Shown: one piece after another, positions 1,130 to 61,862 of the stretch
Layout: every line of letters begins with the position of its first letter
How positions within the stretch are numbered: position 1 is the first letter of the stretch
NCBI RefSeq assembly: GCF_016735595.1
Contig: NZ_JAERRB010000019.1
Span: forward strand, 62,001 to 126,000
Length of the DNA stretch: 64,000 nucleotides
Reading direction: 5' to 3'
From: Chryseolinea lacunae
GTDB taxonomy: Bacteria; Bacteroidota; Bacteroidia; Cytophagales; Cyclobacteriaceae
Notes under the pieces: generated by a model
Told to the model about the DNA's origin: nothing
Databases searched by the model: none
Seen by the model: the letters and a program-made list of their open reading frames with translations, nothing else
Made by a program: the position numbers and the translations under genes

Positions 1130-1194
1130 CAAAGTCTGGTTTCTGCTAAAAAAAAAGTGAATGAATTTTAGCAGGCAGTGGTCAAGAATTAGCA
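1130..1194 (-). promoter_or_regulatory. Regulon promoter 1: 21-bp direct repeats plus -7 box, upstream of susC
   Basis: On the minus strand, two TGCTAA hexamers (plus-strand TTAGCA at 1168-1173 and 1189-1194) lie exactly 21 bp apart, each followed by a CAC contact (ACCAC, TTCAC). A TTTG (plus-strand CAAA 1130-1133) follows 40 bp downstream, matching the Bacteroidota -7 box TAnnTTTG. The same arrangement occurs at five other places in the window. A CAATCGATTG palindrome (1120-1129) sits at the expected start site. About 110 bp here (1090-1195) align with the promoter at 10258-10366. I see no gene in the rest of the 1051-1495 gap. Confidence 0.6.
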
Positions 1195-1495
1195 GATTGG
1201 GTCTACAGAGTCGGGCTAGATAAAATGAATAAAACGCCAGTTGAAGATTATACCCTGGCAGGTGGTATATATGCAAACTAGTCCTTTAAAAAAATAACCA
1301 ATTTACCCATGGTCTCCATCTCATCAATTTATAGCTCTCGATCGGATACCTGTAAATCTTCGAGCACTTGGAAACGTCCTACTATGTTGCTTCCAGAGCG
1401 ACTTTAGATTGCTTACACCTCTTCGCTGAACAGTGCCGCAGGTACTTAGGCCAAACCCTGCTCCGACTGTTTCCAAACAAGATAAATTCTAACAT

Positions 1496-2914
1496 TTACA
1501 GGCTCAACTTCACAATGGAAACAAATTCATCGGGCGCCTTTCTAGGCATTGTCAGGATAGTACGATCACGAGTTTGCTCCACACGTATCTTGGCGTTTGC
1601 ATTTGCCAGGAAGGTTGCGCTTTTTATTTTCGCCTTCAAAGCAGGCAATTCAAGTTGACCATCTTCTGGCCAGTTCAGAATGTGGATGTATACTTCTCCC
1701 GGTTTCGTAGTGCAACGCCAGTTGGCAGGAGCCGCAACGAATTTCCTTTTGCCATCCACTTGGTGGTACTCTCCAAACTCAGTTCCAAAAGCTGTACCAT
1801 GGCAACCGTAAATAGCTTCTCCGTTCACGGCTAGCCATTTGCCTATTTGCCGTAAACGCACAGTATAGGCCAATGAAATCTCACCCTCACCGTCGGGGCC
1901 AATGTTCAACAAATAGTTTCCATTTTTAGAAACCGCATCGATAAGGTGATAAAGTAATTCACTAACCGGGCGAAAATCAGTATCCCATTTCTTATAAGCC
2001 CAACTCTGGTTCATGGTTCCGCAAAGTTCCCAGGGGACATTCGAATATTGTTCAAATGCTTCATTATCGCCACCATTTGTGTAATCCCAAAGCCCAACGT
2101 TACTTCCGGGACCAGAAAATATTCTGCTATTGATCAGGACATCAGGTGAGCTCCTGCGGGTAACTTCGGCGACATGCTGGGCGCGTTCTAATGTCATACC
2201 ACCGGGTGTGTCATACCACATAATCGCGGGATGATATTGCTCACAGATTTCGCGGATTTGAGGGAGAGCCTTCTTTTCAAGATAGACGTCGATATCACCT
2301 TGATACCCGCTAAAAGACCAGTTGTTACCATATGCATCACGTTCGTCCCAGTCCTGAGCATGTGAGTAATAAATCCCGAACCTAATGCCCTGCCGGTCGC
2401 AAGCCTCTTTCAATTCCTGGATAGGGTCACGCTGAAACGGAGTGGCATCCACAATGTTATACGCCGACGCCCTTGACTTAAACATCGCAAAGCCATCATG
2501 ATGTTTGGCCGTAATAACAATGTATTTCATACCGGCCATTTTAGCCACTGACACCCATTCCTCAGCATTAAATCGTAATGGATTAAACTCCTTTGCCAAT
2601 TCACGATATTCCTCAAGGGGAAGCTTATGTAATTTAAGTGCCCATTCACCACCATAAACTTTTTCACCTTTCCAGTATCCTGCCATTTTTGAATACAAAC
2701 CCCAGTGTATAAACATTCCAAACCGGGCTTCCTGATACCATGCTATCCGTTTTTTTTCGGCTAGCGATGGGGCGTAAGTTCCTAACGATGGCCCGCCAAA
2801 CTGCTCCAGCGTAGTCATTTCACTAAACCCTTGGGCAGATGCTTTTTGACCGGCTGATTGTTGCGCACTTACGGCCAAAGGCAGAGCAACTAAAAAAATT
2901 CTTATAGTCTTCAT
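1496..2914 (-). CDS. Secreted alpha-L-fucosidase, GH29
   Basis: Hydrolyses terminal alpha-L-fucose with retention, probably in the periplasm. The signal peptide begins MKTIRIFLVALPLAVSAQ; ATG 2914 is chosen because it gives a canonical one, and ATG 2929 (MNKVT) is an equally good alternative. Family landmarks: FGMFIHWG (fucose-contacting His), KHHDGF, and IMWYDTPGG, whose Asp (residue 235 from this start) is the expected catalytic nucleophile. The length of about 470 residues fits a GH29 catalytic domain plus a short C-terminal beta domain. It is the last gene after SusC, SusD and the GH16-like gene, separated from the latter by about 200 bp, so it may have its own promoter. The family is certain; the linkage cleaved is not. 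Confidence 0.93.
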   Translation of the reverse strand: MKTIRIFLVALPLAVSAQQSAGQKASAQGFSEMTTLEQFGGPSLGTYAPSLAEKKRIAWYQEARFGMFIHWGLYSKMAGYWKGEKVYGGEWALKLHKLPLEEYRELAKEFNPLRFNAEEWVSVAKMAGMKYIVITAKHHDGFAMFKSRASAYNIVDATPFQRDPIQELKEACDRQGIRFGIYYSHAQDWDERDAYGNNWSFSGYQGDIDVYLEKKALPQIREICEQYHPAIMWYDTPGGMTLERAQHVAEVTRRSSPDVLINSRIFSGPGSNVGLWDYTNGGDNEAFEQYSNVPWELCGTMNQSWAYKKWDTDFRPVSELLYHLIDAVSKNGNYLLNIGPDGEGEISLAYTVRLRQIGKWLAVNGEAIYGCHGTAFGTEFGEYHQVDGKRKFVAAPANWRCTTKPGEVYIHILNWPEDGQLELPALKAKIKSATFLANANAKIRVEQTRDRTILTMPRKAPDEFVSIVKLSL

Positions 2915-3115
2915 TGTTACTTTATTCATTCTGAAAGCTTTATGCGTGACATCGTATTTTAACATTTGGACAATTATGTTTACACCTACCCAACGTGATA
3001 AGACTCAATTTAGAGCAGTGTAAACTCTTGCTTCTTACTTCAGTGTAATCAAGTAAATCGAACGAGCGCGAGACCAAAAATCCCATGCGATCACTACACT
3101 TTACAACTCACTGGT

Positions 3116-5047: not shown

Positions 5048-6547
5048 TTAGTACCCGGGATTTTGAGGCGTTAGATTCGGATTATTAACCAAGTCGATAT
5101 ACGGCAGTGGCATCAGCATTCGGTTCTGATCGACGTAGTTAAAATCAGTGATCGCCTTGTTATACTCTCTGGCCAAGTGCTCCTTCATGGTGGGTACAAA
5201 CGTATTCCAGCGTATCAGATCATAATATCGCTTGCCCTCGAAAACCAGCTCACGCCGTCGCTCCTGACGAAGTTTTTGACGTAAATCGGCCTGGTCAGTA
5301 TAGGTTAATGCAGGTAAACCCGCATGGGGCACCCGTACCGAATTGATGGCCGTCAATGCTTTTTCCAGATTGTTCGCTCCCCCCACTTCAATTAGGGATT
5401 CAGCATACATCAACACCACATCCGAATAGCGCAAGGCATGAAAATCATTCTGGTTGTCATTACTATTGGTCAGGTTATCAACATACTTATTGATAATGGG
5501 GATGGTCGTTCCCGGCGGGGTTGTTATCGGTACAATGGATGAACCAGATTTGCGGGCAATACTCACATTTTGACGCAGATCAGTCGGTTGGTATAGCGAG
5601 TCAATAACTTCGTTAGTAGGTATAACGGAGGTAAATCCATAATACCAATATTGAAGCCGGGTATAGGCTAAAAAACTGGATGTTTGTCCTGACACACCTT
5701 TGTAATAAAATATATTCTCTTTGTTGGCCGCTTTTTTGGTAACATCAAAAATATCTCGGTAGGCTGGCATAATATCCACCTTGAATTGGGTTTTGTTTGC
5801 AATGATCTCTTCCAGTTTAGCAACCGCTAGCGGCCATTTACTGGCATCGTTCATCGGATATCCCCCCATGACCATATACACATAACCCAACAGTGCTTTC
5901 GCAGCAACCGCCGTGGCGCGACCACCGTTTGCCTCCGTATAGGTGTAATTGGGTGCCAGGGTCTTTTCGGCATATTGTAAATCATCAATAATTTGCTGGT
6001 ACACATCAGTTTTCGGAGAACGTACCGGATACAGCGTGCTTTCGTCTACGGGTGTCAATACCAGCGGAACATCACCATATAATTGCACGAGCCGAGTGTA
6101 ATAAAATGCGCGCAAAAAACGAGCTTCACCAAAAGACCGCCTGACGACTGCGCGATTTAGGGTAGTATTAGTCAAGGTGTCAACATACGTAAGCACTGCA
6201 TTTGCCCGGCCAATAGCTTTGTATGCTGTGTTCCACACAGCCCTGACAAAATTGTGTCGGGAGGCATAAATCAGGTTTTCAACTTCCAGTCGTTCACTCA
6301 CTGGTGTTCCACCCAATCGTGCATCATCCGTTGGCATTTCAGCCATCCAAATAGGTGAAATATTACCCGTCACATCTTCTCGCATAGCCAGGTAAATACC
6401 ATTGACTGCCCCAACAACGTCGTTATCATTCTTATAGAAATTCGTTGTGGCGATCTGACTTTTGGGGTCTTCTTCCAAAAAGGAACTGCAGCCAGAGCAG
6501 GTAGCCATCAAACAACAAAAGACGAATAGTGTATATACTTGATTCAT
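5048..6547 (-). CDS. SusD/RagB-family nutrient-binding outer-membrane lipoprotein
   Basis: A 499-residue lipoprotein: signal peptide with a Cys-rich lipobox region (MATCSGCSSFLEEDPKSQ), then the SusD-like N-terminal TPR region (AVNGIYLAMRED) and the C-terminal motif RRRELVFEGKRYYDLIRW typical of RagB/SusD. SusD proteins cap the SusC barrel at the cell surface and bind the glycan. The gene starts 34 bp after the SusC stop, so the two are co-transcribed. The length is normal for the family (480-560). Ligand specificity is unknown; neighbouring GH16, GH29, GH95 and propeller enzymes suggest a branched glycan with fucose or galactose. Confidence 0.95.
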   Translation of the reverse strand: MNQVYTLFVFCCLMATCSGCSSFLEEDPKSQIATTNFYKNDNDVVGAVNGIYLAMREDVTGNISPIWMAEMPTDDARLGGTPVSERLEVENLIYASRHNFVRAVWNTAYKAIGRANAVLTYVDTLTNTTLNRAVVRRSFGEARFLRAFYYTRLVQLYGDVPLVLTPVDESTLYPVRSPKTDVYQQIIDDLQYAEKTLAPNYTYTEANGGRATAVAAKALLGYVYMVMGGYPMNDASKWPLAVAKLEEIIANKTQFKVDIMPAYRDIFDVTKKAANKENIFYYKGVSGQTSSFLAYTRLQYWYYGFTSVIPTNEVIDSLYQPTDLRQNVSIARKSGSSIVPITTPPGTTIPIINKYVDNLTNSNDNQNDFHALRYSDVVLMYAESLIEVGGANNLEKALTAINSVRVPHAGLPALTYTDQADLRQKLRQERRRELVFEGKRYYDLIRWNTFVPTMKEHLAREYNKAITDFNYVDQNRMLMPLPYIDLVNNPNLTPQNPGY

Positions 6548-6581
6548 GGAAATGATCTTTAATTAAATCGACAAATAATTT

Positions 6582-9500
6582 TTAGAAAGTTACCATAACA
6601 CCCAATCGGTAATTCCTGAATATGGGGTAGCTACCGTTGTCAAGTCCTCTTGTCGCAAGACTACCTGCACCAACTTCAGGATTAAAGCCTGAATAGCGTG
6701 TCCAGGTTACCAAGTTCTGAAGGTTTGCATACACTTTCAGATTACTAATCCTTAGGTTACTGATTATTGACCGGGGAAAGGTGTAGCCAATATTGATATC
6801 TTTGCAGCGCAGAAACGATCCATCCTCAATATAAAAGTCGCTCACTTCCCGACGGTCAAAGGTCGAACCGGGTGTGGGTACGCGGGTAGTGGCATTGTTG
6901 GCCTGAACGGCTTCCAGAGTTGACCCCGGGGGTATGGCTGAAAGCGGAATATAACGAGCATCAAATGTTTTTTGATAGACGTTATTATCACCACTCATGT
7001 TAGTCAGGATCCAATCATTCTGATTGAAAATCTTATTGCCATACGAGAAATTGAAAAAAGCTGCAAGGTCGAAGTTTCGGAAACGAAGTTCGGTACGGAA
7101 TCCACCCGTAAATTGGGGCAAGGCCGAACCAATAAATACCCTGTCATCGTTGGTCAACAGACCATCGTTGTTGATGTCAGCGTAGCGCATATCTCCTTCG
7201 CGCGCACCGGGCTGAAATGTCGCAGGCTTGGTTTTAATCGTTTCTTCATTCCAGACGGGTTCGGCCTTCAGACCAAAAAATTGACCAATGGGTTTCCCAG
7301 GCTCAAGAATAAAAAGATAAGAGTTTCCGATTAACTGATTGATCCCCAAAAATTCGCCTGAATTTCCAGCCAGTCTATTCACCAGATTTCGATTGAAAGC
7401 AATATTAAAGCTTGTTGACCAGCTGAACTCTCCGGTCTCAACATTGACTGTGGAGAGTGCTATCTCCAGCCCTTCATTTTTAACGCTTGCTGCATTTTTC
7501 GTGTAGCTTGTAAAACCAGTAGTACCCGGTAAATCAATGGTGTATAACAAGTCATCCGTCATCTTTTGATAAAGGTCCACTTGCAGGCTAACGCGATCTT
7601 TAAACAGACCAAGATCCAGACCAATATTAGTCTGGCTCGTCTTCTCCCAGGTTAAACCAGGGTTTGGTAAACGGCTTGGCGAATATGCCGCATTCGCTTG
7701 GGCATTGCCAAACATTACCGTGCCAGCGCTTAACGTTGAAAGCGTATTGTATGGACCAAGCGCTTGATTACCGATCACCCCATAACTCGCGCGTAGCTTC
7801 AGTTCACTAAGGGCTTGAAGGTCTTTGATGAACTTTTCGTTGACGATCCGCCAGGAGGCTCCAACCGATGGAAAAAAGCCAAATCGATTATCTTCCGCAA
7901 ACTTAGAGGAACCATCATACCGCGCGGATACCGTCAGGTAGTAACGATCATCATAATTATAACTCGTTCTGAAAATCGATGACAATAACTGATAACCGCT
8001 GTAATCACTGACGGGTGCTTGTGGCACCTGTCCGGCTTGAATAGCATTCACCCCCGTTAAATCATTTACAAACCCTTGCGAGGAAACCGTTTGTCTTTTT
8101 TCAATATACTTCTCAGCAGTAGCGCCAACCACCGCATTCAGATTATGTTTCGCAAATTTTTTGTCATAACTCAGCGTGGCCTGATAAAGCACCTTATTGC
8201 TCTGAAGATTCCCCAAAGAGGCTACGCCGCGCTGCGTTGTAAATACAGGTAGAATGGTCGACGGCAGGTAGTTTTCCAGTGTCCCGCTATACGAGGTTAC
8301 ACCCAGTACACCCGCGAGTTTAAGATCCTTTGAAATCTTGTAGGTTAATGTAGCATTTCCAAGGATCTGCGTATTTGTATTGATATTTACCGTTCCACCG
8401 CCTTTTATGTTTCCATCAATATAATTGGCGGGATTTGTGGCATAACTATTTGGGCTAATCCGAGATATTACCTCAGTAATCGGAAATCTTGCGTTGTAAT
8501 AAATACGGCCGTACGTCGGATCATCATAAGCCTCTGTACCATAATAATAAGGAACCGTGATAGGATTTAGGGTGCCATCGGGCGTATAAAATGGCAATAT
8601 CGGAGCCCATCGCTGCGTCGTTTGAATGATATCACTTGTCAGGTTTCCGTTTGATTTACTGGCGGTCAGGTTGATACTCGTGTTCAGTATTAATTTTGAT
8701 GTTATTTCATTTTCATAATTAACCTTAAAATTATACCGTTTAAATCCCGTAGATTTTATTAGCCCCTGCTGGTTAAAAAATTGCCCCGAGATATAATATC
8801 TTGATCGGTTTTCGCCCCCTGAAATTGAAATGTTTGCGTCCTGTGTTACGGCCTTCACCGTCACTGCTTTTTGAGGATTAAACTCAACTAAATTAGGGAT
8901 GTCACTTTCCAGATATGGAATAAAATCACTTGCTGGGTTACGGTATCTGTAGGCCTCATTGGCCATTTGCGCAAAATCCGCAGCGCCCAGTACGTCAACT
9001 TGTTTAAGGGGCGTGGCCACGCTCGTGGAATAATTAAATTCGATTTTGGTCTTCCCTTTCTGACCGCTTTTGGTCGTAATAAGCACGACACCATTCGCTC
9101 CTCGCGACCCATAAATAGCCGTCGCCGAAGCATCTTTAAGAATTTCAATACTGGCAATATCATTCGGGTTGATCGACGCCAATGGGCTTGCAACAGCTCC
9201 CCCCGATAAGTTGGCGTTGGAATTCAAGGCACCCACATTGGGCGATTCGAGTGGAATACCGTCAATTACATAGAGTGGCTGTGTCGAGAAGTTGAGTGAA
9301 CTAGCACCCCGAATCTCAACGGACAGGGCCGACCCCGGTTGCCCGGAGGTTTCATTGACAACAACGCCTGCCACACGCCCGGCGAAAGCCTGCTGAAAAT
9401 TACCATAGCCACTTTCCTGAAATTTCGTGGTTTTTACGTGTCCCACTGAGCCCACCAAATCAGATTTCTTTGCTTCACCATATCCAATGACAACTACCTC

Positions 9501-9893
9501 ATCCAGTACTTCTTCATCTGGCGTTAATCGAATTTCAAGTTTGCTTTGAGATCCGACTTTTATTTTTTGTGATAAATAGCCTATAAATGAAAAAACCAGT
9601 ACTGAGTTTTCGTTAGGTACATCTATGGTAAACTCACCATTTTCATTTGTCGATGTTCCCTGTGTCGTGTTTTCAACAAGGATATTTACGCCGGGAAATC
9701 GTTCATCCGTATCTCCGGAATAGACCACCCCGCTGACAACCTTAGTACTCTGTGCTTGGAGACACATCGGCCACAGAAATGCACTAATGAGTAAGGCAAA
9801 AAAACACCCTGCTCGTCGATCAATTAAGTTGGCAAATAGTCGGTTAACAACCGTACCTATACAGCCTGGAACCCACCAAGTATAAAAATTCAT
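6582..9893 (-). CDS. SusC/RagA-type TonB-dependent receptor
   Basis: A complete 1103-residue receptor. An unusually long N-terminal region (about 48 residues before CLQAQS) precedes a carboxypeptidase-like domain (GVVYSGDTDERFPGVNI, SFIGYLSQ), the VVVIGYGEAKK segment, a plug domain (VEIRGASSLN, LYVIDGIP, ILKDASATAIYGSRGANGV) and a 22-strand-type barrel ending in the terminal aromatic motif VMVTF. There is no STN domain, so it is a transporter rather than a sigma-regulating transducer. It forms a pair with the SusD gene 34 bp downstream. A regulon promoter lies 446 bp upstream of the start, predicting a leader of about 400 nt. No better start was found to shorten the signal region. Confidence 0.95.
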   Translation of the reverse strand: MNFYTWWVPGCIGTVVNRLFANLIDRRAGCFFALLISAFLWPMCLQAQSTKVVSGVVYSGDTDERFPGVNILVENTTQGTSTNENGEFTIDVPNENSVLVFSFIGYLSQKIKVGSQSKLEIRLTPDEEVLDEVVVIGYGEAKKSDLVGSVGHVKTTKFQESGYGNFQQAFAGRVAGVVVNETSGQPGSALSVEIRGASSLNFSTQPLYVIDGIPLESPNVGALNSNANLSGGAVASPLASINPNDIASIEILKDASATAIYGSRGANGVVLITTKSGQKGKTKIEFNYSTSVATPLKQVDVLGAADFAQMANEAYRYRNPASDFIPYLESDIPNLVEFNPQKAVTVKAVTQDANISISGGENRSRYYISGQFFNQQGLIKSTGFKRYNFKVNYENEITSKLILNTSINLTASKSNGNLTSDIIQTTQRWAPILPFYTPDGTLNPITVPYYYGTEAYDDPTYGRIYYNARFPITEVISRISPNSYATNPANYIDGNIKGGGTVNINTNTQILGNATLTYKISKDLKLAGVLGVTSYSGTLENYLPSTILPVFTTQRGVASLGNLQSNKVLYQATLSYDKKFAKHNLNAVVGATAEKYIEKRQTVSSQGFVNDLTGVNAIQAGQVPQAPVSDYSGYQLLSSIFRTSYNYDDRYYLTVSARYDGSSKFAEDNRFGFFPSVGASWRIVNEKFIKDLQALSELKLRASYGVIGNQALGPYNTLSTLSAGTVMFGNAQANAAYSPSRLPNPGLTWEKTSQTNIGLDLGLFKDRVSLQVDLYQKMTDDLLYTIDLPGTTGFTSYTKNAASVKNEGLEIALSTVNVETGEFSWSTSFNIAFNRNLVNRLAGNSGEFLGINQLIGNSYLFILEPGKPIGQFFGLKAEPVWNEETIKTKPATFQPGAREGDMRYADINNDGLLTNDDRVFIGSALPQFTGGFRTELRFRNFDLAAFFNFSYGNKIFNQNDWILTNMSGDNNVYQKTFDARYIPLSAIPPGSTLEAVQANNATTRVPTPGSTFDRREVSDFYIEDGSFLRCKDINIGYTFPRSIISNLRISNLKVYANLQNLVTWTRYSGFNPEVGAGSLATRGLDNGSYPIFRNYRLGVMVTF

Positions 9894-10300: not shown

Positions 10301-10365
10301 GAAATTCCGATTTCTGAGAAAGCTATTGTGAAGGAATTTTAGCAGTCAGTGGTAAGGAATTAGCA
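10301..10365 (-). promoter_or_regulatory. Regulon promoter 2: 21-bp direct repeats plus -7 box, upstream of susC/susD
   Basis: Plus-strand TTAGCA at 10339-10344 and 10360-10365 (minus-strand TGCTAA) are 21 bp apart, each followed on the minus strand by a CAC contact (ACCAC, TTCAC). The -7 position holds TTTC (10301-10304), one mismatch from TTTG. The CAATCGATTG palindrome (10292-10301) abuts it, as in promoter 1. The susC start is 408 bp further left. The intervening 9894-10300 holds the hairpin at 9971-10006 and no convincing gene. Confidence 0.6.
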
Positions 10366-13888: not shown

Positions 13889-14752
13889 TCACACATTTGA
13901 GCGCACATACTGGATGGGCGTCATATGCATGGCAGCTTTAAATTGTTTATTAAAAGTGGATAGATTGGCAAATCCTGATTCATAACAGACCTGCGCTATT
14001 TTATTACGTTTCTCTTGAAGTAATTGACAGGCGTACCCGATCCGGACTTCCGATAAAAAATGCGAGAACGTCTTGGTGGTGCGCTGGCGGAAATATCTGC
14101 AAAATGCGGTGGGGCTCATGCTTGCAGCGTGCGCAACTTCATCCAGGGTAATGGGATTACGAAAGTTTTCAAAGATATACTGATGCACTTGTTCGAGACG
14201 ATCGTTGCTACTTGAAAATGCGGTTGCCGTAATGGCAGATTCTGTAAGTGGTCTCATGTCCTGAGACTCACTAATTTTTTGCAAAACATCAAGCAGTATA
14301 AATAACCTTTTGGTTTGGCTCTCCTGCTCCATACGTTCCATCGCCCACGATACCTCGTTGTGCAACTTGCCCGTGATTTTTACACCCGCTGATGCTTTGA
14401 GCAACAACTCACGAATTTGTCTGAGCTCCGGCTTGTTAAAGAAATCATCACCTAAGAAATTATAGGAGAAATAGGCCGTAATAGACTCGCATGCATCCGA
14501 CTGAGGTTTATCAAAATATTGCTGATCTGATTTCCATAAATGAGGAACATTTGCGCCGAGCAGTACTAAATCTCCGTCTTGAAAAGGTTCAATTTTATTG
14601 GAAACATAGCGCATCCCCTTTCCACGCACGACCAAACTTAACTCAAGCTGCGGATGGTAGTGCATCTCATGGTAAAAATAGGGAACATGTTGCCGCTTAA
14701 TCATAAATGAACTCTGTGGACCGGCAGTGTCCTTCAATACGTACTTATTCAT
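13889..14752 (-). CDS. AraC-family transcriptional regulator with cupin sensor domain
   Basis: 287 residues. The N-terminal half is a cupin-type ligand-binding fold (EMHYHPQLELSLVVRGKG, VLLGANVPHLW). The C-terminal 100 residues hold the two helix-turn-helix motifs of AraC proteins (ITLDEVAHAASMSPTAFCRYFRQRT and NKIAQVCYESGFANLSTFNKQFK regions). Such proteins bind a sugar and activate promoters at direct-repeat sites. It lies 44 bp upstream of GH95 in the same direction. It is one of two AraC-domain proteins in the window that could recognise the 21-bp repeats described elsewhere. Confidence 0.93.
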   Translation of the reverse strand: MNKYVLKDTAGPQSSFMIKRQHVPYFYHEMHYHPQLELSLVVRGKGMRYVSNKIEPFQDGDLVLLGANVPHLWKSDQQYFDKPQSDACESITAYFSYNFLGDDFFNKPELRQIRELLLKASAGVKITGKLHNEVSWAMERMEQESQTKRLFILLDVLQKISESQDMRPLTESAITATAFSSSNDRLEQVHQYIFENFRNPITLDEVAHAASMSPTAFCRYFRQRTTKTFSHFLSEVRIGYACQLLQEKRNKIAQVCYESGFANLSTFNKQFKAAMHMTPIQYVRSNV

Positions 14753-14828: not shown

Positions 14829-15872
14829 TCATTCATCATTCGCTAAGTGAAGTTCCCTTCGTGTCGAATCCCGCACAATTAACTTGGGAATAAAGACACG
14901 CCGCTGAGAAACGGCTTCCTGTCCTTTATGGATGCAGGATATTTGATCAAGAAGTAGTTCGGCGGCCGCCTGCCCCATGGCCTCGCTGAACTGATCCACC
15001 GTGGTCAACGACGGCGTGATATGTTTGGTCAATTCTTCGTTGCTAAACCCCACAATTCCAAGCTGCCCAGGTACGTCAATCTGTCGGCTTTTAGCAAAGT
15101 TCAAAACTCCCAACGCTAAATAGTCACTGGCCGCAACCACGGCATCCGGGGGATCCGGAAGATTAAAAAGACTTTCCATCACCGCCATTGCAAAATCTTT
15201 ATCAGGGGAAGACTCAAAAATAAAATGATCCAACACAGGAAGGCCATGTTTGACAAGGCCATATTTATAACCTTCCATCCGCTTGTTAAACGCCAGGATA
15301 TGTGAATAGCCTCCCAGATGAGCAATGCGACGGTAGCCCATCTCCGCCAGGTGGTCAACAACCTTCACGGCAGCCTGAAAGTCATCAATCACAATATTGC
15401 TGATGGACTCATCCTCAAACACTCTGTCAAAAAGTACGAGAGGCCTGTCTTTGGAAAATTCTTGGTAGAAACCTACTTGTTTAGTTTCCATCCCCAGCGA
15501 AGCAATTACTCCCTCAACGTTGGCTCTTACAAAACCGTCCAACTGCTTTTTCTCCTGCTCCTGTGAATCCTTCGACTGAGAAATCATCACACTGTATCCA
15601 GCATCACTCAACACCTCTTCGGCTCCTTTGATGGCCGAGGAAAAGAAACTATAGTGAATGCCTGGCACCAGTATTCCAATCAAACCGGTCCGCCCCGTTC
15701 TAAGGGCGCTCGCCATACTGTTCTGTTGATAGCCAAGCTCCTGTGCCGCCTTCAGAACAGCATTTCGCGTATCGTCACTAATCCGGGTATTTCCGTGAAG
15801 TGCTTTTGATACAGCCGACGGGGTAATACCCACCCTTGCCGCGATGTCAACTATGGTCGATTTTTTCTTCAC
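14829..15872 (-). CDS. LacI-family transcriptional regulator
   Basis: 347 residues. The N-terminal HTH (STIVDIAARVGITPSAVSKAL) with hinge helix (NSMASALRTGRTGLIGILVP) is followed by a periplasmic-binding-protein-like sensor domain (DRPLVLFDRVF, AVVAASDYLALGVLNFA, GIVGFSNEELTKHITPSLTTV). LacI proteins bind palindromes with a central CG and release or bind DNA on sugar binding. Two identical palindromes of that type lie upstream, one 14 bp before its start, so autoregulation is likely. It is the first gene of the minus-strand run leading to AraC and GH95 (76 bp spacing). Confidence 0.95.
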   Translation of the reverse strand: MKKKSTIVDIAARVGITPSAVSKALHGNTRISDDTRNAVLKAAQELGYQQNSMASALRTGRTGLIGILVPGIHYSFFSSAIKGAEEVLSDAGYSVMISQSKDSQEQEKKQLDGFVRANVEGVIASLGMETKQVGFYQEFSKDRPLVLFDRVFEDESISNIVIDDFQAAVKVVDHLAEMGYRRIAHLGGYSHILAFNKRMEGYKYGLVKHGLPVLDHFIFESSPDKDFAMAVMESLFNLPDPPDAVVAASDYLALGVLNFAKSRQIDVPGQLGIVGFSNEELTKHITPSLTTVDQFSEAMGQAAAELLLDQISCIHKGQEAVSQRRVFIPKLIVRDSTRRELHLANDE

Positions 15873-16900: not shown

Positions 16901-17476
16901 ATGCAGGTAGATAATGAATGGAAAGAGCAGGACCTTATCGAGGCATTGCGGCAAGGCGATGAACAAGCGTATAGTATCATCTTTAAGCAGTACTGGAAAA
17001 CGTTATATCACCAGGCCTATTGCAAAGTACAATCACACGAACTTGCTGAAGAAATTGTGCAAGAGCTGTTTCTTACGCTATGGGAAAAACGTAGCACGCT
17101 GCTGATCTCCAACCTGCTTCACTACCTTCGCACTGCCCTGCGCAACAAATGCATCGATCATATTCGTGCTACACTGGTGAAGGATAAATACTGGCGCTAC
17201 TACAAGCAATTCATCCCCCGACAGGCCGACGCCACGCAGGAAATGGTATCCTATAATAATCTGGCGGAAGCCTTGGAGACCGGTCTGTCTCGCCTACCGG
17301 AGAAAACCAAAGCGGTCTTTGCCCTTAGTCGATTCGAGGGCCGGTCCATTGCAGAGGTGGCAAAAGTGGTAAGACTTTCCGAAAAGGCCGTGGAATATCA
17401 TCTTACCAAATCGTTGAAAATACTGAAAGTCTACCTGAAAGACTTTGTGCTCCTGGCCCTGCTCTTGTTTTATTAA
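16901..17476 (+). CDS. ECF-type RNA polymerase sigma factor
   Basis: 191 residues with sigma region 2 (DEQAYSIIFKQYWKTLY, EEIVQELFLTLWEKR, YLRTALRNKCIDHIR) and region 4 (LSRLPEKTKAVFALSRFEG, IAEVAKVVRLSEKAVEYHLT). It belongs to the Bacteroidota ECF group paired with FecR anti-sigma factors and STN-type SusC receptors, all three of which follow in order. In the known model, glycan binding at the receptor releases the sigma factor through FecR, which then drives the susC/susD operon. It should act on a promoter upstream of the receptor at 18906. Confidence 0.93.
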   Translation: MQVDNEWKEQDLIEALRQGDEQAYSIIFKQYWKTLYHQAYCKVQSHELAEEIVQELFLTLWEKRSTLLISNLLHYLRTALRNKCIDHIRATLVKDKYWRYYKQFIPRQADATQEMVSYNNLAEALETGLSRLPEKTKAVFALSRFEGRSIAEVAKVVRLSEKAVEYHLTKSLKILKVYLKDFVLLALLLFY

Positions 17477-17697
17477 TTGTCCCCCTCCTGTCTTTTTGTC
17501 TCTTAAGATCATGCCGGCTTGCGTTTCGCGTGAACGCCATTTAGCCTATGCCTTTATTCTTTTGTAAGGCCGTTTTTGTTAGAGATGCCCCTTGTCAAAG
17601 TTTTTTTGCCGAGGCAGGATGAAAGATCAAGTTTTTCCGAAAACGTTTTAGGGATTCTCCTGAGTTGTTCGTCTTAATGGGTATGCGACAAGCCCCC

Positions 17698-18717
17698 ATG
17701 AGCAGAAAGGAATTTGAGAAGATTTTGATGAAGTATCAAAAAGGACTATGTACAGCCGAAGAGGAGGCTTTGGTACAGCGGTGGTATGATACCATCGGCG
17801 AGGAGACAAATTTTTCCATAGACCAAGCGCAGCACCAACAATTGGAAAATGTGCTGTGGCAGAAGCTGTCCTTACGCATACATGAGCCGGTGGTGCCCAC
17901 ACCTTCGCGATTGTATTGGAAAATTGCCAGTGTGGCCGCCGCCCTGTTTATATGCATTGGGATGGGCGTGTATCTGGCCACTGACAACTTTGCCGCAAAT
18001 GAAGGCGACTTCGCCGCGGTGGAGGGTGCTGAAATGATTATTGTCAATGACCACCCCGTGGCCAAAGCGGTAACGCTGGAAGACGGAAGCGTGATTACGC
18101 TACAACCGGGCAGTACGTTGCGCATGGCAAAACATTTCAGCAAAGAAAAACGCGAATTGCAACTTACGGGTGTTGCCTTTTTTGAAGTGGCCCACGATAA
18201 GCAACGACCATTTTTGGTCTATACAAAAAATGTGATCACCAAAGTTTTGGGCACCAGTTTTTCGGTGTATGCAGATAAGCTCGATTCGTCTATTACGGTT
18301 TCGGTAAAAACGGGCCGCGTTTCGGTGTCCCGGCAGGTGGAGAAACATTTTGGGTTAACCAAAACCATGAAGGAAGAGGCCATCCTGGTGCCCAATCAAA
18401 AAGCCGTTTTCGATTTGAGCAAAGAAAAAGTCACCACTACGCTGGTGGACAACCCTCAACCGGTGCTGGCCATCGAAAAGGAAAAGGTGATGACCTTTGA
18501 TGAGAAGCCGGTAACAGACATTTTGAAGTCGCTGGAAAAAATGTACGCGGTTGACATTGACTACGATGCAAGCGCATTGCAATTCTGCGAGCTTACTACA
18601 GTCTTTTCGGAAGAAGGTCTCTATGAACGCCTACGGATTATCTGCAAAGCCATCGAGGGGACCTATGAAATCCACGGCACACGCATCATTCTAAAAAGCC
18701 GTGGATGTAGTCACTAA
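17698..18717 (+). CDS. FecR-family anti-sigma factor
   Basis: About 339 residues. Start ATG 17698 (MSRKEFEKIL) is preferred; in-frame ATGs at 17677 and 17683 are possible. The order is a cytoplasmic sigma-binding N-terminus, one transmembrane helix (about residues 75-93, ASVAAALFICIGMGVYL), a periplasmic FecR domain (EDGSVITLQPGSTLR, LTGVAFFEVAHDKQRPF, VLGTSFSVYAD) and a C-terminal domain of the DUF4974/STN-like type. It transmits occupancy of the outer-membrane receptor to the ECF sigma factor. It follows the sigma gene by 220 bp and precedes the STN-containing SusC, the standard order. Confidence 0.93.
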   Translation: MSRKEFEKILMKYQKGLCTAEEEALVQRWYDTIGEETNFSIDQAQHQQLENVLWQKLSLRIHEPVVPTPSRLYWKIASVAAALFICIGMGVYLATDNFAANEGDFAAVEGAEMIIVNDHPVAKAVTLEDGSVITLQPGSTLRMAKHFSKEKRELQLTGVAFFEVAHDKQRPFLVYTKNVITKVLGTSFSVYADKLDSSITVSVKTGRVSVSRQVEKHFGLTKTMKEEAILVPNQKAVFDLSKEKVTTTLVDNPQPVLAIEKEKVMTFDEKPVTDILKSLEKMYAVDIDYDASALQFCELTTVFSEEGLYERLRIICKAIEGTYEIHGTRIILKSRGCSH

Positions 18718-23985: not shown

Positions 23986-24549
23986 TCAGATCGCATAAGC
24001 CGGTGAAAGTACGATATGTTCGAAGGATCGGAGAGTCGGAGAACCTCCCTTTGGCATGTTTGGTAAAATCCGAACTTGAGGCGCTACCGAAAACTGATTA
24101 CAGACTGTATTAGGCCCGCTCACGTCGTCGGGAAAAATCTTAATCACTGGACAACGAAGTTTGCTGGCATAGACCATGTCCTTCGCTATAAAACAGTGCG
24201 GTATCCACAAAATTCTTGCCTGGTCACATTGCTTTTTTATGTCCAGCTGGGTTATCGGCGACACTAGGAAATCCGCCCCAGCCCTCAGGAAAAAGCGAGC
24301 TGACTTAGCTTCCAGAATGATACCAACGCCAAGCACGGCGTCCGGAAATCGCTGTGGGCGACATTGCACAAGCTCCGCAAAAATACGGCGTGCATTCATA
24401 CTTCGCCGTGAAATTTCAAAAACGCGCTGCCCTTCCCTATAGCGCTGCGTGATATCGTTAATGGCTGTCTCTGATTCCTTATAGTGACAAACCGAAACTA
24501 CCGTAGCGCTACGTATCGTCTTAATTACCTTTTCTATTTTTGGTCGCAT
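23986..24549 (-). CDS. KDPG/KHG aldolase-like protein (Eda family), C-terminally shortened and possibly decayed
   Basis: About 187 residues from ATG 24549 (MRPKIEKVIKTIRS), overlapping the end of the upstream symporter gene by 29 bp. Eda-like landmarks: GQRVFEISRRS (cf. GVRVLEVTLRT, with the conserved Glu), VLGVGIIL, GADFLVSP and VIKIFPDDVSGP, whose Lys matches the Schiff-base lysine of KDPG aldolase. Other sites differ: IPGxxT is IPHCFIA, PTGG is MPKGG, and the last 40 or so residues with the GGSWL motif are missing. Eda enzymes split 2-keto-3-deoxy-6-phosphogluconate into pyruvate and glyceraldehyde phosphate and would fit uronate or deoxysugar catabolism. Activity is doubtful here. Confidence 0.6.
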   Translation of the reverse strand: MRPKIEKVIKTIRSATVVSVCHYKESETAINDITQRYREGQRVFEISRRSMNARRIFAELVQCRPQRFPDAVLGVGIILEAKSARFFLRAGADFLVSPITQLDIKKQCDQARILWIPHCFIAKDMVYASKLRCPVIKIFPDDVSGPNTVCNQFSVAPQVRILPNMPKGGSPTLRSFEHIVLSPAYAI

Positions 24550-26224
24550 CTGGCAAAGCAACGGTTGATCGTCCACTGGTCATCGAAATTCTTGCTCCGG
24601 CCAGGAGTGCAAGAATCAGTATCACGGCCCCTACGACCATCACGACTAAATCGTTCTTCGCCAAAAGACCAAGCACAAATATTCCTGCCCCAACGACGAT
24701 AGCGGCGATAATAATTACTTTCACACCGAACGCATTCTGCTGCTTAACTCCCACCGTGATGGCTTTGACCACGGGTGGCTCGGATTCAAACTGCAAAGCC
24801 GACGATGAAAGCCGATTGATTGATCTGTAGTACGACTCGAATGCAAACAAAGAAAGCAGCGGCAGAAAAACACCTATTGATGTTTCAAGCATCCTTGACA
24901 ATTTCACCTGGAAGAAAACTGGATGCAGTAGCTTAAAATACAGACAGACCGACAGGGTCAACAACGTGGTAAAGACGACAGAAAATGCCGTAATCCTCTT
25001 AGAATACAACGACCATATAATCGGCGCGAACAGTGCCCCACCGGCAATGGAGGCGATCGACAATACGAGTTCAACGATGCCGCCAAGTCTTGGGATGAGC
25101 AATGCTACCCCTATGGTCGCAATCCCAAATACAACGGTGAACAGCCGGGCAACAAAAATCTGCTCGCGATCACTCGAAAGCGGTCTAATCAAATTTTTGT
25201 ACACGTCCTTGGCAAACACGGTGGCAGCAAGATTGATCGTGGTATTGGCCTTGCTAGAGGTTGCCGAAACCATTCCCGACAATACCAATCCGATCAAGCC
25301 TGCTGGAAGTACACGCTGACAGAGCATCATATAGGCACCTTCCGGTTCAAGCCCTTCAAGGGATGGATTAATGACTCTGTAAATCATGGGCGGAAGCATC
25401 CAGACCAATGGACTAATCAGATAAAGTGCCGCAAAAAGATAGGCCACCTTTTTTGCATTCCGCTCTGTGGACACGCTCGTATACCGCTGCACATATGCCC
25501 AGTTGCCACCAATGTAATAAGTCTGGTATCCTACAAAGGCAAGCATGAACAGCGCAGTATAGTCCTCGTTGAAGGGTTCAAAAAAATGGGCCGGCGCCTT
25601 GTTGATGAATTGTTGCATACCACCAACGTCTGCCAGCGATGCCGGGATAACAATAACCACTGCAGCCATTAATATTATGAATTGCACAACATCGGTCACC
25701 AGCACCGCCCATAACCCTCCGGCAGCAGTATAGAGGATTACCACCAATCCAATCACGACAATGCATGTGTTCAGGGAGAATGGTGTTGCCAGTTGGACCA
25801 TTTTACCTACGGGATATAATACGGAGGCTGTATGGGCCAAACTCAAAAACAAAACCAATACCGTATAAAATTGTTGCGTCTTTATGTCAAAGCGTAGCCC
25901 GATAAATTCAGACGCCGTCCTCGTGCCAGTTCGTTTCCACTTGCCCGCAACAAACATGGCCACGATAATCCCACTTATGGCCATGGTGAGTTGTATCACA
26001 TTGGCCACAACGCCGTGCTTGTAGGCGATTGATCCCCACACTACGAATGTGCCTGCAGAGAAATAACTGATAAAAAGCGAAAGGCCATTTATCCACCATG
26101 GCGTATCACCACCCGCTTCAAAAAAAGCTTGCCCGTCTTTGCTGCCTACCCGAGTAAATGCCACGCCTATCGCAAAGATAAGGATGGCAAAAACGATCAT
26201 AACTAGTACATCCAATGGAATCAT
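24521..26224 (-). CDS. Sodium:solute symporter (SSS family)
   Basis: About 567 residues from ATG 26224 (MIPLDVLVMIVFAIL); longer in-frame starts run back into the preceding gene and add a non-membrane extension. Many hydrophobic segments, with the family segment DTPWWINGLSLFISYFSAG and NWAYVQRY, identify an SSS transporter of the sialic-acid/sugar/acid type. The gene starts 14 bp after the FAD oxidoreductase stop and overlaps the aldolase-like gene, so the three are one operon. In such operons the symporter usually imports a monosaccharide or sugar acid released in the periplasm; the substrate is not readable. Confidence 0.92.
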   Translation of the reverse strand: MIPLDVLVMIVFAILIFAIGVAFTRVGSKDGQAFFEAGGDTPWWINGLSLFISYFSAGTFVVWGSIAYKHGVVANVIQLTMAISGIIVAMFVAGKWKRTGTRTASEFIGLRFDIKTQQFYTVLVLFLSLAHTASVLYPVGKMVQLATPFSLNTCIVVIGLVVILYTAAGGLWAVLVTDVVQFIILMAAVVIVIPASLADVGGMQQFINKAPAHFFEPFNEDYTALFMLAFVGYQTYYIGGNWAYVQRYTSVSTERNAKKVAYLFAALYLISPLVWMLPPMIYRVINPSLEGLEPEGAYMMLCQRVLPAGLIGLVLSGMVSATSSKANTTINLAATVFAKDVYKNLIRPLSSDREQIFVARLFTVVFGIATIGVALLIPRLGGIVELVLSIASIAGGALFAPIIWSLYSKRITAFSVVFTTLLTLSVCLYFKLLHPVFFQVKLSRMLETSIGVFLPLLSLFAFESYYRSINRLSSSALQFESEPPVVKAITVGVKQQNAFGVKVIIIAAIVVGAGIFVLGLLAKNDLVVMVVGAVILILALLAGARISMTSGRSTVALPDATKNRKGN

Positions 26225-26237
26225 AATATGTGAATTG

Positions 26238-28523: not shown

Positions 28524-28673
28524 CGTCCCTCCTTCCCTTATCATATGGTTATATTTAATACTGTTGTCAGTTCCATGTGCAACACGTGCCACCATCTTTT
28601 CCATGCTGCCACAGCCACAGAAACCGGCTGCGCTCGCCCTGAACGATGATTGCGTGAATTGCTAAACTGCAGG

Positions 28674-50009: not shown

Positions 50010-50027
50010 CTAAAATCAGCTATACGA

Positions 50028-56604: not shown

Positions 56605-56880
56605 TTAGTCTTTATTCGAACACGTCTTGAAATCTGCCGAGGCTTGTTTGACAAACTCTTCAAACAGTTTATCAATGATGGCCGTTAATTTTTCTGGACG
56701 AGGTAACTTGTCAATTCCTAAATACGCGTGGGGATTCTGCAATATGGAACTTTTTATTTTAGTCACCTCATAGCACCATCGAGTATGTCCCCTTTCGTTG
56801 TATTGCTTAACCAGCAAATCAAAAACCGGAATGAGCGAAATGCGAATTGAAACAGTAAGCATCTGAAAATCCTGAGGCAT
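56605..56880 (-). CDS. Small hypothetical protein (91 aa)
   Basis: ATG 56880, product beginning MPQDFQMLTVSIRISLIPVF and ending in a charged helix (KLTAIIDKLFEEFVKQASADF). Codon use looks coding and the composition is that of a soluble, largely helical protein. No signal peptide and no family recognised. A regulon promoter lies 199-264 bp upstream, giving a leader of about 195 nt, which supports real expression. It is alone on its strand between plus-strand genes. Confidence 0.5.
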   Translation of the reverse strand: MPQDFQMLTVSIRISLIPVFDLLVKQYNERGHTRWCYEVTKIKSSILQNPHAYLGIDKLPRPEKLTAIIDKLFEEFVKQASADFKTCSNKD

Positions 56881-57078: not shown

Positions 57079-57144
57079 CAAATTGACCAAAAAAAGAATA
57101 AGCATTCCTCTAAAATATTAGCAACATATAATGATTATTTAGCT
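57079..57144 (-). promoter_or_regulatory. Regulon promoter 5: 21-bp direct repeats plus -7 box
   Basis: Plus-strand TTAGCA (57118-57123) and TTAGCT (57139-57144) are 21 bp apart. On the minus strand, TCAATTTG with its TTTG at 57079-57082 is at the conserved -7 distance. It points toward the 91-residue gene at 56880. The remaining 57145-57529 upstream of the plus-strand kinase gene holds no gene that I can support. Confidence 0.55.
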
Positions 57145-59845: not shown

Positions 59846-59977
59846 TATAATTTTCGTTCTGGCGCGTAATAAGCAGAAAAATATACTTTCATATCATTGA
59901 TTAATAATCCTATGAAATCAACATTACTAAGCGATCATTTTAATATTATTGCTTACCAATGAATATTAATTGATGTG

Positions 59978-60613
59978 TTAAAGCCTGCGCGTGTTGACAA
60001 CCAACGGCGCGTTTCCGACGACGTAGAACATATAATTTTCCTGCCGGGCTTTAATTTTGTTTGCCAGGTCCTCTACCCAATGATATAGCAAACCATGGTT
60101 GGTGACACCCTGCAACGGCAGCCACGGACAATTTTCGTGAAATGCTGCTGCGGTTTTCAAATCGCTGAAGGCAATGCAGCCCATTACCTGCATACCCTGC
60201 GATGCCAACTGCTGCAAGGCACAAAAATGGCCGATGGCCGTTTGGTCTCCAAAGAAAACCAGTTGTTTGTCCGGCACAGGATAGTGACTTTCGTCTTCGA
60301 TCTTAAGATAGTGAAAAGCATTGCCCCGCTTCTGCATTTTTGCCCATTCGCTGCCTTTTCCGGTGTGACTTGTGTCGATATATACTGTACAGGTTTTCTC
60401 GTTGGCATCCCACATTGATGGCGTGTAGTCAGTGTAGTGAAATGACGATATCCGGCATTTTATGGACTGTGTTTTATGCCATGCTTCAAAATCGACATTT
60501 GGCAAATGAAGATGCAACTCGTGGACGTTGTCTCCCGCCTACGGACGAGCAGAGGAGATTTGGCCGGTTTTGACAAAAACTTTTTCTAGCGTTGCGATGA
60601 CGTTGGTTGCCAT
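59978..60613 (-). pseudogene. Siderophore-interacting (SIP-type) flavoprotein gene, interrupted by an in-frame TAG
   Basis: From ATG 60613 the frame reads MATNVIATLEKVFVKTGQIS then ARP, hits TAG at 60539-60541, and continues in the same frame with AGDNVHELHLHLPNVDFEAW to the end at 59978. The downstream 187 codons contain DYTPSMWDANEKTCTVYID, VFFGDQTAIGHFCALQQLA and YHWVEDLA, typical of FAD-binding SIP/ViuB-type ferric-siderophore reductases. Because the sequence on both sides of the stop fits one FAD-domain start, this looks like a nonsense mutation in a formerly intact gene of about 211 codons. Translation from a later TTG near 60517 would miss the first FAD-binding strand. A sequencing error is possible. 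Confidence 0.7.
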
Positions 60614-60658
60614 GGTTTGTGTTGACTGATTTTTGTAAAGGTTGCTTTATTTTCGCGT

Positions 60659-60699
60659 CGTCATAAGCAGGCTTGCTTACGCAAGCCTGCTTTGATGAC
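60659..60699. terminator. Long perfect hairpin between the NmrA-like and SIP-like genes
   Basis: AAGCAGGCTTGC (60665-60676), loop TTAC, GCAAGCCTGCTT (60681-60692): a 12-bp perfect stem, extended by GTCAT/ATGAC at the base. It lies 30 bp after the stop of the minus-strand NmrA-like gene and before the SIP-like start. The U-tract is weak, so it may be a terminator or a processing/stability structure. Confidence 0.55.
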
Positions 60700-60728
60700 C
60701 TTGCATAATAGACGCCTGTTATCTGATT

Positions 60729-61634
60729 TTAGTCTACATGGTATGCTGCCGCGAACTGTTTCACGAAATCGTGGAGCTTCTCTTTGCCCAGCGTTGGCTT
60801 GTGCCGGTAATAATCTTGGTAGAGCAACCCACTTCCCTGGCTTGCTTGCATCTCGACAAAGCCGTGGGCGATTTGCGCATTGAACCCGATAGTCAACCAG
60901 CTGCTCAGGAGCTGTTCGTCGCTAACCACCTGCCATGGCAATTCGGGCTTGCCGATGGCGTGGCCCAAGGCTGTTGCAATTTCGTTTGGCGAAAGCTCCT
61001 CGCTGGCCACGTAGCGGATTGTTCGGCCGGCAAAGGGTTTGTCCATTTCTTCGGCAATGGCAGCGGCTACGTCTGCAGGGGACACCCAGGGTTCTTTTTT
61101 GTCGCCTCCATAGTTGGACACGATGGCGCCTTTTGTTTTGATGTTGCTGATGAGGCCAAACAAGTTGGAGTAGAACCCAACGGGACGCATGAATTTGATG
61201 CTGACCTGTGCGGGGAGTTGTTTCAGAATGGCTTCGACGTTGTAGTGAAATTGCAGAATGCCATTGCCCGATTTCATATGCGCGCCAACGCTGCTGAGGT
61301 GAACGACCCGGGTGACGCCAGACTGCAAAACAGCCTGACTATAATTTTTCCCGATCTGGCGTATTGCACCCAGAAAGTCTGCCTCTTTATCGAAGAAGTC
61401 TCCAGCGGCGTCGAGCGTTTCCATGAGGTAGACAATGTCGGCGCCCTGGAACGTTGCGGCCAGAAAGGGAACATCGAACATGCTGCCCACGACGGCTGTG
61501 GCCCCAAGTGATTCAATTTCTTTTACCCGCTCCGCCTTGCTTGTAATTACCGAGACGGAATGACCATTTCTGACTAGTTGTTGCGTAAGCGGCTTGCCCA
61601 CATTACTGATTGATCCTGTTAGTACGATGTTCAT
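60729..61634 (-). CDS. NmrA-like NAD(P)-binding protein (atypical SDR)
   Basis: About 301 residues from ATG 61634 (MNIVLTGSISNVGKPLTQQL); an earlier in-frame start adds 13 residues of unlikely sequence. The glycine motif GSISNVGKP deviates from the usual GATGxxG. TSKAERVKEIESLGATAVVG, VTRVVHLSSVGAH and VSPADVAAAIAEEM follow the NmrA/NAD(P)H-binding layout. Such proteins are nucleotide sensors or quinone/nitro reductase-like enzymes and the role here is unclear. It is cytoplasmic, next to the SIP-like flavoprotein gene on the same strand, and preceded by a regulon promoter with a leader of about 160 nt. Confidence 0.85.
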   Translation of the reverse strand: MNIVLTGSISNVGKPLTQQLVRNGHSVSVITSKAERVKEIESLGATAVVGSMFDVPFLAATFQGADIVYLMETLDAAGDFFDKEADFLGAIRQIGKNYSQAVLQSGVTRVVHLSSVGAHMKSGNGILQFHYNVEAILKQLPAQVSIKFMRPVGFYSNLFGLISNIKTKGAIVSNYGGDKKEPWVSPADVAAAIAEEMDKPFAGRTIRYVASEELSPNEIATALGHAIGKPELPWQVVSDEQLLSSWLTIGFNAQIAHGFVEMQASQGSGLLYQDYYRHKPTLGKEKLHDFVKQFAAAYHVD

Positions 61635-61796
61635 AGTTGCGTTTGATTTTGTTGATACAAAAATCAACAGCAACGAGAACTCGCCCGTAGTCGAAAGTCA
61701 GTTTGTTGTAGTCAAAAAGGAGGTTGTTTGCGTGGTGCCTTGGTGAGAAAGATTTATGATGGGCACGCTTACCAAACAGCCTCGTTAAGATTCAAC

Positions 61797-61862
61797 CAAA
61801 GATCCGTGCTTTCACCTCCATATTCTCATGAATTATTAGCGTATGGTGGTGATAAATTAGCA
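61797..61862 (-). promoter_or_regulatory. Regulon promoter 6: 21-bp direct repeats plus -7 box, upstream of the NmrA-like gene
   Basis: Plus-strand TTAGCG (61836-61841) and TTAGCA (61857-61862) are 21 bp apart, and TTTG (plus CAAA 61797-61800, in GATCTTTG) is at the conserved -7 distance. The distal flank aligns closely with promoter 4. The rest of the gap to 62238 has no gene I can support; it must carry the promoter of the ECF gene at 62239. Confidence 0.55.

Follow-up and report, generated by a model that had tools for sequence, protein, structure and literature searches.

Which protein reads the 21-bp direct repeats found at several promoters of Chryseolinea lacunae, and what does it control? 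The question is raised by a stretch of 64,000 nucleotides from contig NZ_JAERRB010000019.1 (C11 in the following; the whole stretch, C11:62001-126000, is referred to as the window), in which six promoters carry paired GCTAA-type boxes at a constant distance from a TTTG-like box. A first-pass annotation had assigned these promoters to one activator. Our analysis argues for a larger unit: the repeats very probably mark a local activator regulon of 12 promoters for the use of fucose-containing polysaccharides, run by a cupin-AraC protein encoded at window positions 13889-14752. This reading combines the sites, their fixed geometry, their clustering and the content of the genes behind them with a matching geometry at the araC genes of homologs from across the Bacteroidota, all of which were observed by computation.

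Twelve repeat sites at a fixed distance from a TTTG box

The genome is a draft of 7.9 Mb in 29 contigs, and C11 accounts for 132,144 bases or 1.7% of it; window coordinates are C11 coordinates minus 62000. On the minus strand of the window, GCTAA boxes are spaced by exactly 21 bp at 1168/1189, 10339/10360, 28712/28733, 57118/57139 and 61836/61857, and a sixth pair at 30688/30709 has GATAA in one half. These are the six repeats of the first-pass annotation, all of them present, including the one degenerate half. All six face minus-strand open reading frames (ORFs), at 107-445 bp from the starts of the presumed targets instead of the 118-446 bp given before. Counting the first base of the promoter-proximal GCTAA as offset 0, the sites and their -7-like boxes are as follows.

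1168-1193, minus strand: site GCTAATTCTTGACCACTGCCTGCTAA, promoter of susC1/susD1 (both by Pfam; susC1 extends past the left window end); box TTTG at 1130-1133, minus strand, offset 39
10339-10364, minus strand: site GCTAATTCCTTACCACTGACTGCTAA, promoter of susC2/susD2 (susC2 starts 445 bp away, and a 78-aa ORF lies in between); box TTTC at 10301-10304, minus strand, offset 39
28712-28737, minus strand: site GCTAATATGCCATCACAAGAAGCTAA, promoter of genes for a FAD oxidoreductase, an SSF symporter and a KDPG-type aldolase (Pfam); box CTTG at 28674-28677, minus strand, offset 39
30688-30713, minus strand: site with one degenerate half (GATAA), before an orphan ORF of 101 aa that is followed by an MFS transporter gene; box TTTG at 30649-30652, minus strand, offset 40
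57118-57143, minus strand: site GCTAAATAATCATTATATGTTGCTAA, upstream of a 91-aa ORF; box TTTG at 57079-57082, minus strand, offset 40
61836-61861, minus strand: site GCTAATTTATCACCACCATACGCTAA, upstream of an NmrA-like gene (Pfam); box TTTG at 61797-61800, minus strand, offset 40

The box types are those described earlier (TTTG four times, TTTC and CTTG once each), and the distance, previously put at 40-41 bp, is 39-40 by the present count. Allowing at most one mismatch, the pattern matched the window 11 times compared to a mean of 3.25 in shuffled sequence, and none of 100 shuffles reached 11; six of these matches are the promoters above and five lie inside ORFs.

A scan of the whole contig gave 11 strong sites and one weaker one, 12 in total, of which six sit left of the window. 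In C11 coordinates with their strands they are 30473-, 35315-, 37876-, 39692+, 51845-, 51961+, 63168-, 72339-, 90712-, 92688-, 119118- and 123836-, the six window sites being those from 63168 onward. Half-site starts are 21 bp apart at all 12. The distal half has A[TC]CAC eleven bases after the GCTAA start in 6 of the 12 sites (4 of the 6 in the window) and the more permissive AYYAY in 10; GTTAA replaces GCTAA in two distal halves. The second box of the proximal half is mostly degenerate, and A[TC]CAC is exact in 1 of 12. Of the earlier proposal that each repeat offers two contacts, with A[TC]CAC 11 bp after GCTAA, the part concerning the distal half-site stands; the proximal half-site does not show it clearly.

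When each of the 11 training sites was left out in turn, it scored 17.3-32.4, and no more than 11 positions on C11 scored higher: the 10 other training sites and one more, presumably the site at 30473. This site reads TAAATTTG with TTTG at +40 and was counted as real for that reason. The sites are strongly clustered: for GCTAA-N6-AYYAY-N5-GCTAA, all 6 exact matches in the genome and 5 of the 7 with one mismatch are on C11, and for exact GCTAA-N16-GCTAA the contig holds 8 of 14 genome matches with 0.23 expected (binomial 1.7e-11). None of the 12 site midpoints falls inside a called ORF, while only 15% of C11 is intergenic.

The fixed distance to the TTTG box is real as well. An exact TTTG lies at +40 in 7 of the 12 sites and at 39-41 in 9, the remaining three having TTTC or CTTG at 39; with at most one mismatch, the box is found at 39-41 in every site. 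At a density of 0.007 TTTG per position on C11, and with 100 offsets allowed for, the chance of finding 7 of 12 at one offset is ~7e-11. The box had been matched to the -7 element of Bacteroidota, which, in the passages of PMC9723704 on the sigma-A promoters of Flavobacterium psychrophilum, reads TAnnTTTG and occupies -12 to -5. Only the TTTG core of this element is common to our sites; its TA half is correctly placed at only two of the 12 sites, both of which lie left of the window. The missing TA half fits promoters that depend on an activator, as might be expected. If the box is assumed to lie at -12 to -5 as in those passages (PMC9723704), the half-sites fall at about -48 to -33 (proximal) and about -69 to -54 (distal), and the proximal half-site abuts or overlaps the upstream promoter element.

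Genes behind the sites

The following genes lie behind the 12 sites, which are given by their C11 coordinates.

30473: Melibiase-like hydrolase
35315: GH29 fucosidase
37876: right-handed beta-helix protein
39692: KDG-type kinase, KDPG-type aldolase, tagaturonate reductase and fuconolactonase-like hydrolase (in part by NCBIfam)
51845: seven consecutive genes for a GH43-like protein, two FAA hydrolases, an altronate/galactarate-type dehydratase, two SDRs including L-fucose dehydrogenase, and an FMN-dependent lactate-type dehydrogenase
51961: FucP and a zinc dehydrogenase
63168 (window 1168): SusC1/SusD1 and a FAD oxidoreductase
72339 (window 10339): SusC2 (6582-9893, minus strand), SusD2 (5048-6547, minus strand), a LamG protein and, as the final gene of this run, an alpha-L-fucosidase of family GH29 (1496-2965, minus strand), by Pfam
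90712 (window 28712): FAD oxidoreductase (26238-28604), SSF symporter (24521-26332) and aldolase (23986-24576), together 23986-28604, minus strand, by Pfam and NCBIfam
92688 (window 30688): 101-aa orphan ORF as the first called frame (30212-30517, minus strand) and possibly the MFS transporter (28762-29994, minus strand, by Pfam)
119118 (window 57118): 91-aa ORF (56605-56880, minus strand)
123836 (window 61836): NmrA-like protein (60729-61673, by Pfam) and a 179-aa ORF (59978-60517), together 59978-61673, minus strand

The NCBIfam cut-offs are passed by L-fucose dehydrogenase (NF052481, 407.7 bits, cut-off 300), FucP (TIGR00885, 322.6 bits, cut-off 280.4) and tagaturonate reductase (NF002969, 510.3 bits, cut-off 359). 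The fuconolactonase match (257.9 vs 400) and that to 2,4-didehydro-3-deoxy-L-rhamnonate hydrolase (370.3 vs 500) stay below theirs; the dehydratase can be placed only in the galactarate/altronate family, and the second SDR only among SDRs in general. The site-linked genes for polysaccharide use comprise two SusC/D pairs and two GH29 fucosidases. The same region also encodes, with no site directly in front, a GH95 protein (beside araC), a third GH29 fucosidase, two sulfatases, a sulfatase-maturing enzyme and a heparinase-II/III-like protein. The cluster reads as serving the use of a polysaccharide that is sulfated and rich in fucose, its exact identity being our deduction. The idea of a single regulon for the window promoters holds in that the sites behave like those of one regulon; it has to be enlarged by the six sites left of the window to a total of 12, with L-fucose catabolism as its core.

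The two short ORFs have few relatives in the genomes of the host's family, apparently Cyclobacteriaceae ("family genomes" in the following). Among 98 of these, relatives of the 101-aa ORF were found only in its own genome, and those of the 91-aa ORF in 2 including its own, where it also has weak matches on contigs C27 and C9. Both may be small proteins, leaders or non-genes.

The cupin-AraC protein as candidate regulator

The first-pass annotation had left the choice between an AraC protein at 13889 and a hybrid two-component system protein (HTCS) at 32711. The homologs of the former have the geometry of the C11 sites, and we favour it; for the HTCS, no motif was found at the adjacent promoters or in homolog neighbourhoods. 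The features in question are:

13889-14752, minus strand: proposed activator, 287 aa, with a cupin sensor and an AraC domain of two helix-turn-helix (HTH) motifs (Pfam and homolog evidence)
14829-15872, minus strand: LacI-family regulator directly upstream of araC, with no site before the gene (Pfam)
32711-36844, plus strand: HTCS of 1377 aa, not favoured (Reg_prop, Y_Y_Y, HisKA, HATPase, REC and AraC HTH domains, by Pfam)

In the cupin-AraC protein, the Pfam matches to HTH_18 (6.6e-20) and AraC_binding are above the gathering scores and the one to Cupin_2 slightly below its own. A sequence search of the PDB returned general AraC-domain and cupin relatives only, the best being an HTCS chain at 2.6e-9.

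We compared the regions upstream of AraC homologs, beginning with the 29 top family hits by protein similarity, which were not selected for the motif. Within the upstream 400 bp, 16 of the 29 showed a self-identity of at least 12/16 at period 21, compared to 0-3 at each of the other periods between 14 and 35; the same test on 29 HTCS homologs gave 0 at period 21. Aligned groups of AraC homologs keep repeats such as GMYAAAAT-N-CAGT at 21 bp. For 97 regions (80 named AraC loci plus the 29 family regions, less 12 sharing a 30-mer), we counted two G[ACT][CT]AA boxes with at most one mismatch in total at period d, together with TTTG at distance x. Over the 697 cells of this grid (mean 0.47, standard deviation 0.84), the maximum was reached at (21,40) with 12 regions, followed by (21,39) with 6 and then 4; on the opposite strand the cell (21,40) was empty. 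The geometry in the divergent promoters of the homologs, whose loci were not motif-selected, equals that on C11. Four loci that had been fetched for pattern hits (L124, L125, L015 and L016) were left out of these 97 regions and of the 18-locus count given below; they are included in another set of AraC period counts.

The gene context points in the same direction. At least two of seven L-fucose oxidation genes adjoin 21 of 100 AraC loci, a sample in which L124 and L125 are included but do not count towards the 21 and in which L120 and L154 are the same record, compared to 0 of 20 HTCS loci, where one such gene was found at 2 of 20. In a tree of the AraC homologs, the C11 protein falls into a group of 31 (95/80) that holds 16 of the 21 fucose-adjoining loci; the other five are in a group of 27 together with a paralog on contig C1, and none is in a group of 44.

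This C1 paralog from the same genome is 33% identical to the C11 protein and is encoded among variant sites, for example GCTAAAATTCTATTAC-N5-GATAAAATTTGTTTAT, with arabinosidase-type genes. The variant 21-bp sites extend over C1:349448-383037 (G000, L014-L016) and accompany GH51/GH127-type arabinosidase domains, GH20, SusC/D and a POT transporter; they are probably an arabinose-side counterpart. Close relatives in the genomes G156 and G177 have similar sites, both of them fetched, like the C1 stretch, for a pattern hit. Across the homologs, box 1 is largely kept and box 2 is group-specific, in parallel to the proteins, where the second HTH is conserved and the first one varies. This may amount to a recognition code in cupin-AraC homologs.

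Based on these results, the following mechanism can be proposed. The one-component cupin-AraC regulator would bind a product of L-fucose or fucan breakdown and, dimerised head to tail, occupy two half-sites of 16 bp whose spacing of 21 bp, or two helical turns, would place both on one face of the DNA. The distal half-site would be GCTAAT-N5-A[TC][CT]A[CT] and the proximal one a variant with a weaker second box. If TTTG is indeed the core of the sigma-A -7 box, the bound protein could contact RNA polymerase and so offset a weak promoter, with no good TA at most sites. The head-to-tail AraC-type arrangement suggested in the first-pass annotation would fit the period of 21 bp at the 12 sites and at many homologous araC genes. 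Judging from sequence, the AraC protein is probably the binder, probably acts as an activator and probably responds to L-fucose or a catabolite of it.

Several results weigh against this assignment. The C11 araC gene and the LacI gene in front of it both lack a site, in contrast to many of the homologs. The closest homolog of the C11 AraC protein in 196 family genomes is 42% identical, the best among the 80 named loci listed 43%, and the protein sits on a long branch (1.44) in the tree; because no close ortholog was found and the branch is long, the transfer from the homologs to C11 is indirect. Among the 29 upstream regions, 8 share a 30-mer with another region, and of the 16 with period 21, L044 and L046 nearly duplicate each other, and two or more, L027 and L047 among them, do not resemble the motif. 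Box 2 differs in the homologs, being CAGT-like in two aligned groups. The grid box was chosen after inspecting C11 and the homologs, and with two mismatches the grid gives 21 at (21,40) with a mean of 3.64 and a next cell of 13, and the opposite strand gives 7 with a mean of 3.5. In the 80 named loci alone, the excess at period 21 is modest at a self-identity of 12/16 (10 vs 0-6) and absent at 13/16 (0). With all intergenic regions of 18 family AraC loci, (21,40) gave 2 with a mean of 0.75 and a top cell of 5, and no peak was seen.

Searches with the C11 motif itself and for de novo repeats were also of limited reach. The exact motif occurs in 33 of 390 family genomes, with more than two matches only in the genome of the window. 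The C11 half-site matrix found few sites near homologs; in the 80 named loci, period 21 was the commonest at a lower threshold (16 vs 1-13) and, with 5, equal to several other periods at a higher one. De novo self-repeats in the 21 fucose-AraC loci showed a marginal excess at 21 (9 loci vs 2-8), most of those printed not being motif-like. Because of these poorly fitting results, the assignment of the regulator rests on family-wide geometry and gene context and not on a conserved orthologous regulon. Finally, the genome-wide frequency, proposed earlier as a check, gave a divided answer: raw counts are below those of a reversed control pattern, both for exact GCTAA-N16-GCTAA (14 vs 22) and for the longer pattern with at most two mismatches (49 vs 113), while the best matches are concentrated on C11. 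The motif is therefore a local and not a genome-wide signal.

Alternative explanations

The HTCS at 32711-36844 would, as binder, act as a phosphorylated dimer with its AraC-type domain on 21-bp direct repeats. Its gene lies inside the site cluster and encodes an HTH_18 domain, and the passages of PMC3878776 on Bacteroides thetaiotaomicron describe HTCS motifs as direct repeats averaging 21 bp. However, the promoters beside the HTCS gene and its susC lack the motif, with a best pair score of -5.0 or lower compared to 19.3-35.8 at the 12 sites. In 20 HTCS-homolog neighbourhoods and 29 HTCS upstream regions, there was no excess at period 21 of either GCTAA-matrix matches or self-repeats, and the neighbourhoods gave 0 at (21,40). 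Moreover, no HTCS was found in the 80 kb covered around the C1 variant sites: the C11 HTCS was not among the BLAST hits listed around the C1 paralog, and the two largest candidates there are a fn3/lipase protein (1616-aa ORF) and a TPR sensor kinase without HTH (908 aa). With neither motif nor geometry at its adjacent promoters, in homolog neighbourhoods or in upstream regions, we rejected the HTCS as the regulator and consider this explanation unlikely. Beside one HTCS homolog in G061, a SusC-like ORF is directly preceded by a weak 21-bp near-repeat of another kind (L129:7469-7506, at least 11/16), a possible lead to the motif of that HTCS itself.

It is also quite improbable that the sites are recognised by a different protein of AraC or HTCS type whose gene lies elsewhere in the genome. 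Candidates abound, a first look giving 87 loose AraC and 312 loose HTCS matches. Against them stand the location of all exact and most one-mismatch sites on C11 and the fact that the C11 AraC protein belongs to a family with this very geometry, often adjoining fucose genes. A chance or repeat artefact, by scattered GCTAA pairs or a mobile repeat, has next to no probability: the raw genome-wide counts are not above the reversed control, but the clustering, the intergenic placement and the +40 distance of TTTG each exceed chance expectation by far, and the flanks of the sites differ, so that they are not copies of one element and a mobile or tandem repeat is ruled out. The LacI-family protein was rejected as regulator since LacI sites are palindromic and the sites here are direct repeats.

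The window also contains two ECF sigma/FecR anti-sigma pairs, at 16901-18717 and 62239-63884. The former lies directly before susC3/susD3, which have no 21-bp site and are probably under sigma/anti-sigma control instead.

Relation to known regulons and implications

Among the matches listed in a search of open-licence literature (titles and starts of abstracts), there was no description of the motif or of an AraC-type L-fucose regulator in Bacteroidota. FucR of B. thetaiotaomicron is a GntR-type protein. Like our sites, it serves a fucose regulon, but according to the passages of PMC3878776 it controls another pathway (with the products lactaldehyde and glycerone phosphate) in a single operon. 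For Algoriphagus marincola HL-49, another Bacteroidetes genome, the passages of PMC5507952 describe a locus for the same L-fucose oxidation pathway, and the legend to Figure 3 mentions predicted FucR sites in unspecified genomes; regulator family and motif are not stated in that text.

The architecture as such has precedents. In the passages of PMC3878776 (Ravcheev et al. 2013), 16 of the 36 B. thetaiotaomicron HTCSs have predicted direct repeats that average 21 bp, and these regulons resemble ours in the direct repeat of ~21 bp, the AraC-type HTH and polysaccharide targets including SusC/D. Our sites differ in spanning monosaccharide catabolism besides uptake and hydrolysis and in having, most likely, a cupin-AraC protein of the one-component type as regulator. 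The AraC-type RhaR of Bacillales, Bacteroides and Enterococcus likewise has direct repeats with a 21-bp period in the passages of PMC3870299 (Rodionova et al. 2013); here, the L-fucose oxidative pathway and fucosidases are concerned and the motif is GCTAAT-N5-AYYAY, the comparison with RhaR being one of targets and motif and not of regulator sequences. In Zobellia, the AraC regulator ZGAL_3159 is important for carrageenan use according to the passages of PMC5698469, which present an AraC-type positive regulator with a multi-locus sulfated-polysaccharide regulon in Bacteroidota, as proposed here, but for another polysaccharide and, in these passages, with no DNA-binding motif. The term "unrecognised" thus applies to the regulon, within the literature searched, and not to its architecture, since 21-bp direct repeats have been published for HTCSs (PMC3878776) and RhaR (PMC3870299), as far as the passages of these papers go.

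Bacteroidota play a major part in the degradation of algal and mucin-type glycans rich in fucose, and the published direct-repeat regulons that we found for them come from Bacteroides. We see an even balance for and against a broader proposal, namely a phylum-wide subfamily of cupin-AraC activators that share one rigid promoter geometry, with two bipartite half-sites of 16 bp at a spacing of 21 bp and TTTG at +40, and whose code can be read in part. In this proposal, box 1 would be largely kept (GMYAA-like, ATCAA in one group) along with a conserved second HTH (S[NT]FN[RK] core), box 2 would vary with the first HTH, and a large branch would take the place that FucR has in Bacteroides, controlling L-fucose oxidation and the use of glycans rich in fucose. 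For C. lacunae, the 21/40 geometry links a likely regulator gene to 12 promoters and predicts their start sites within a few bases. For the many unannotated cupin-AraC genes, it provides an assignment rule, and it supports a one-component sensor as common controller of outer-membrane uptake and cytoplasmic catabolic steps.

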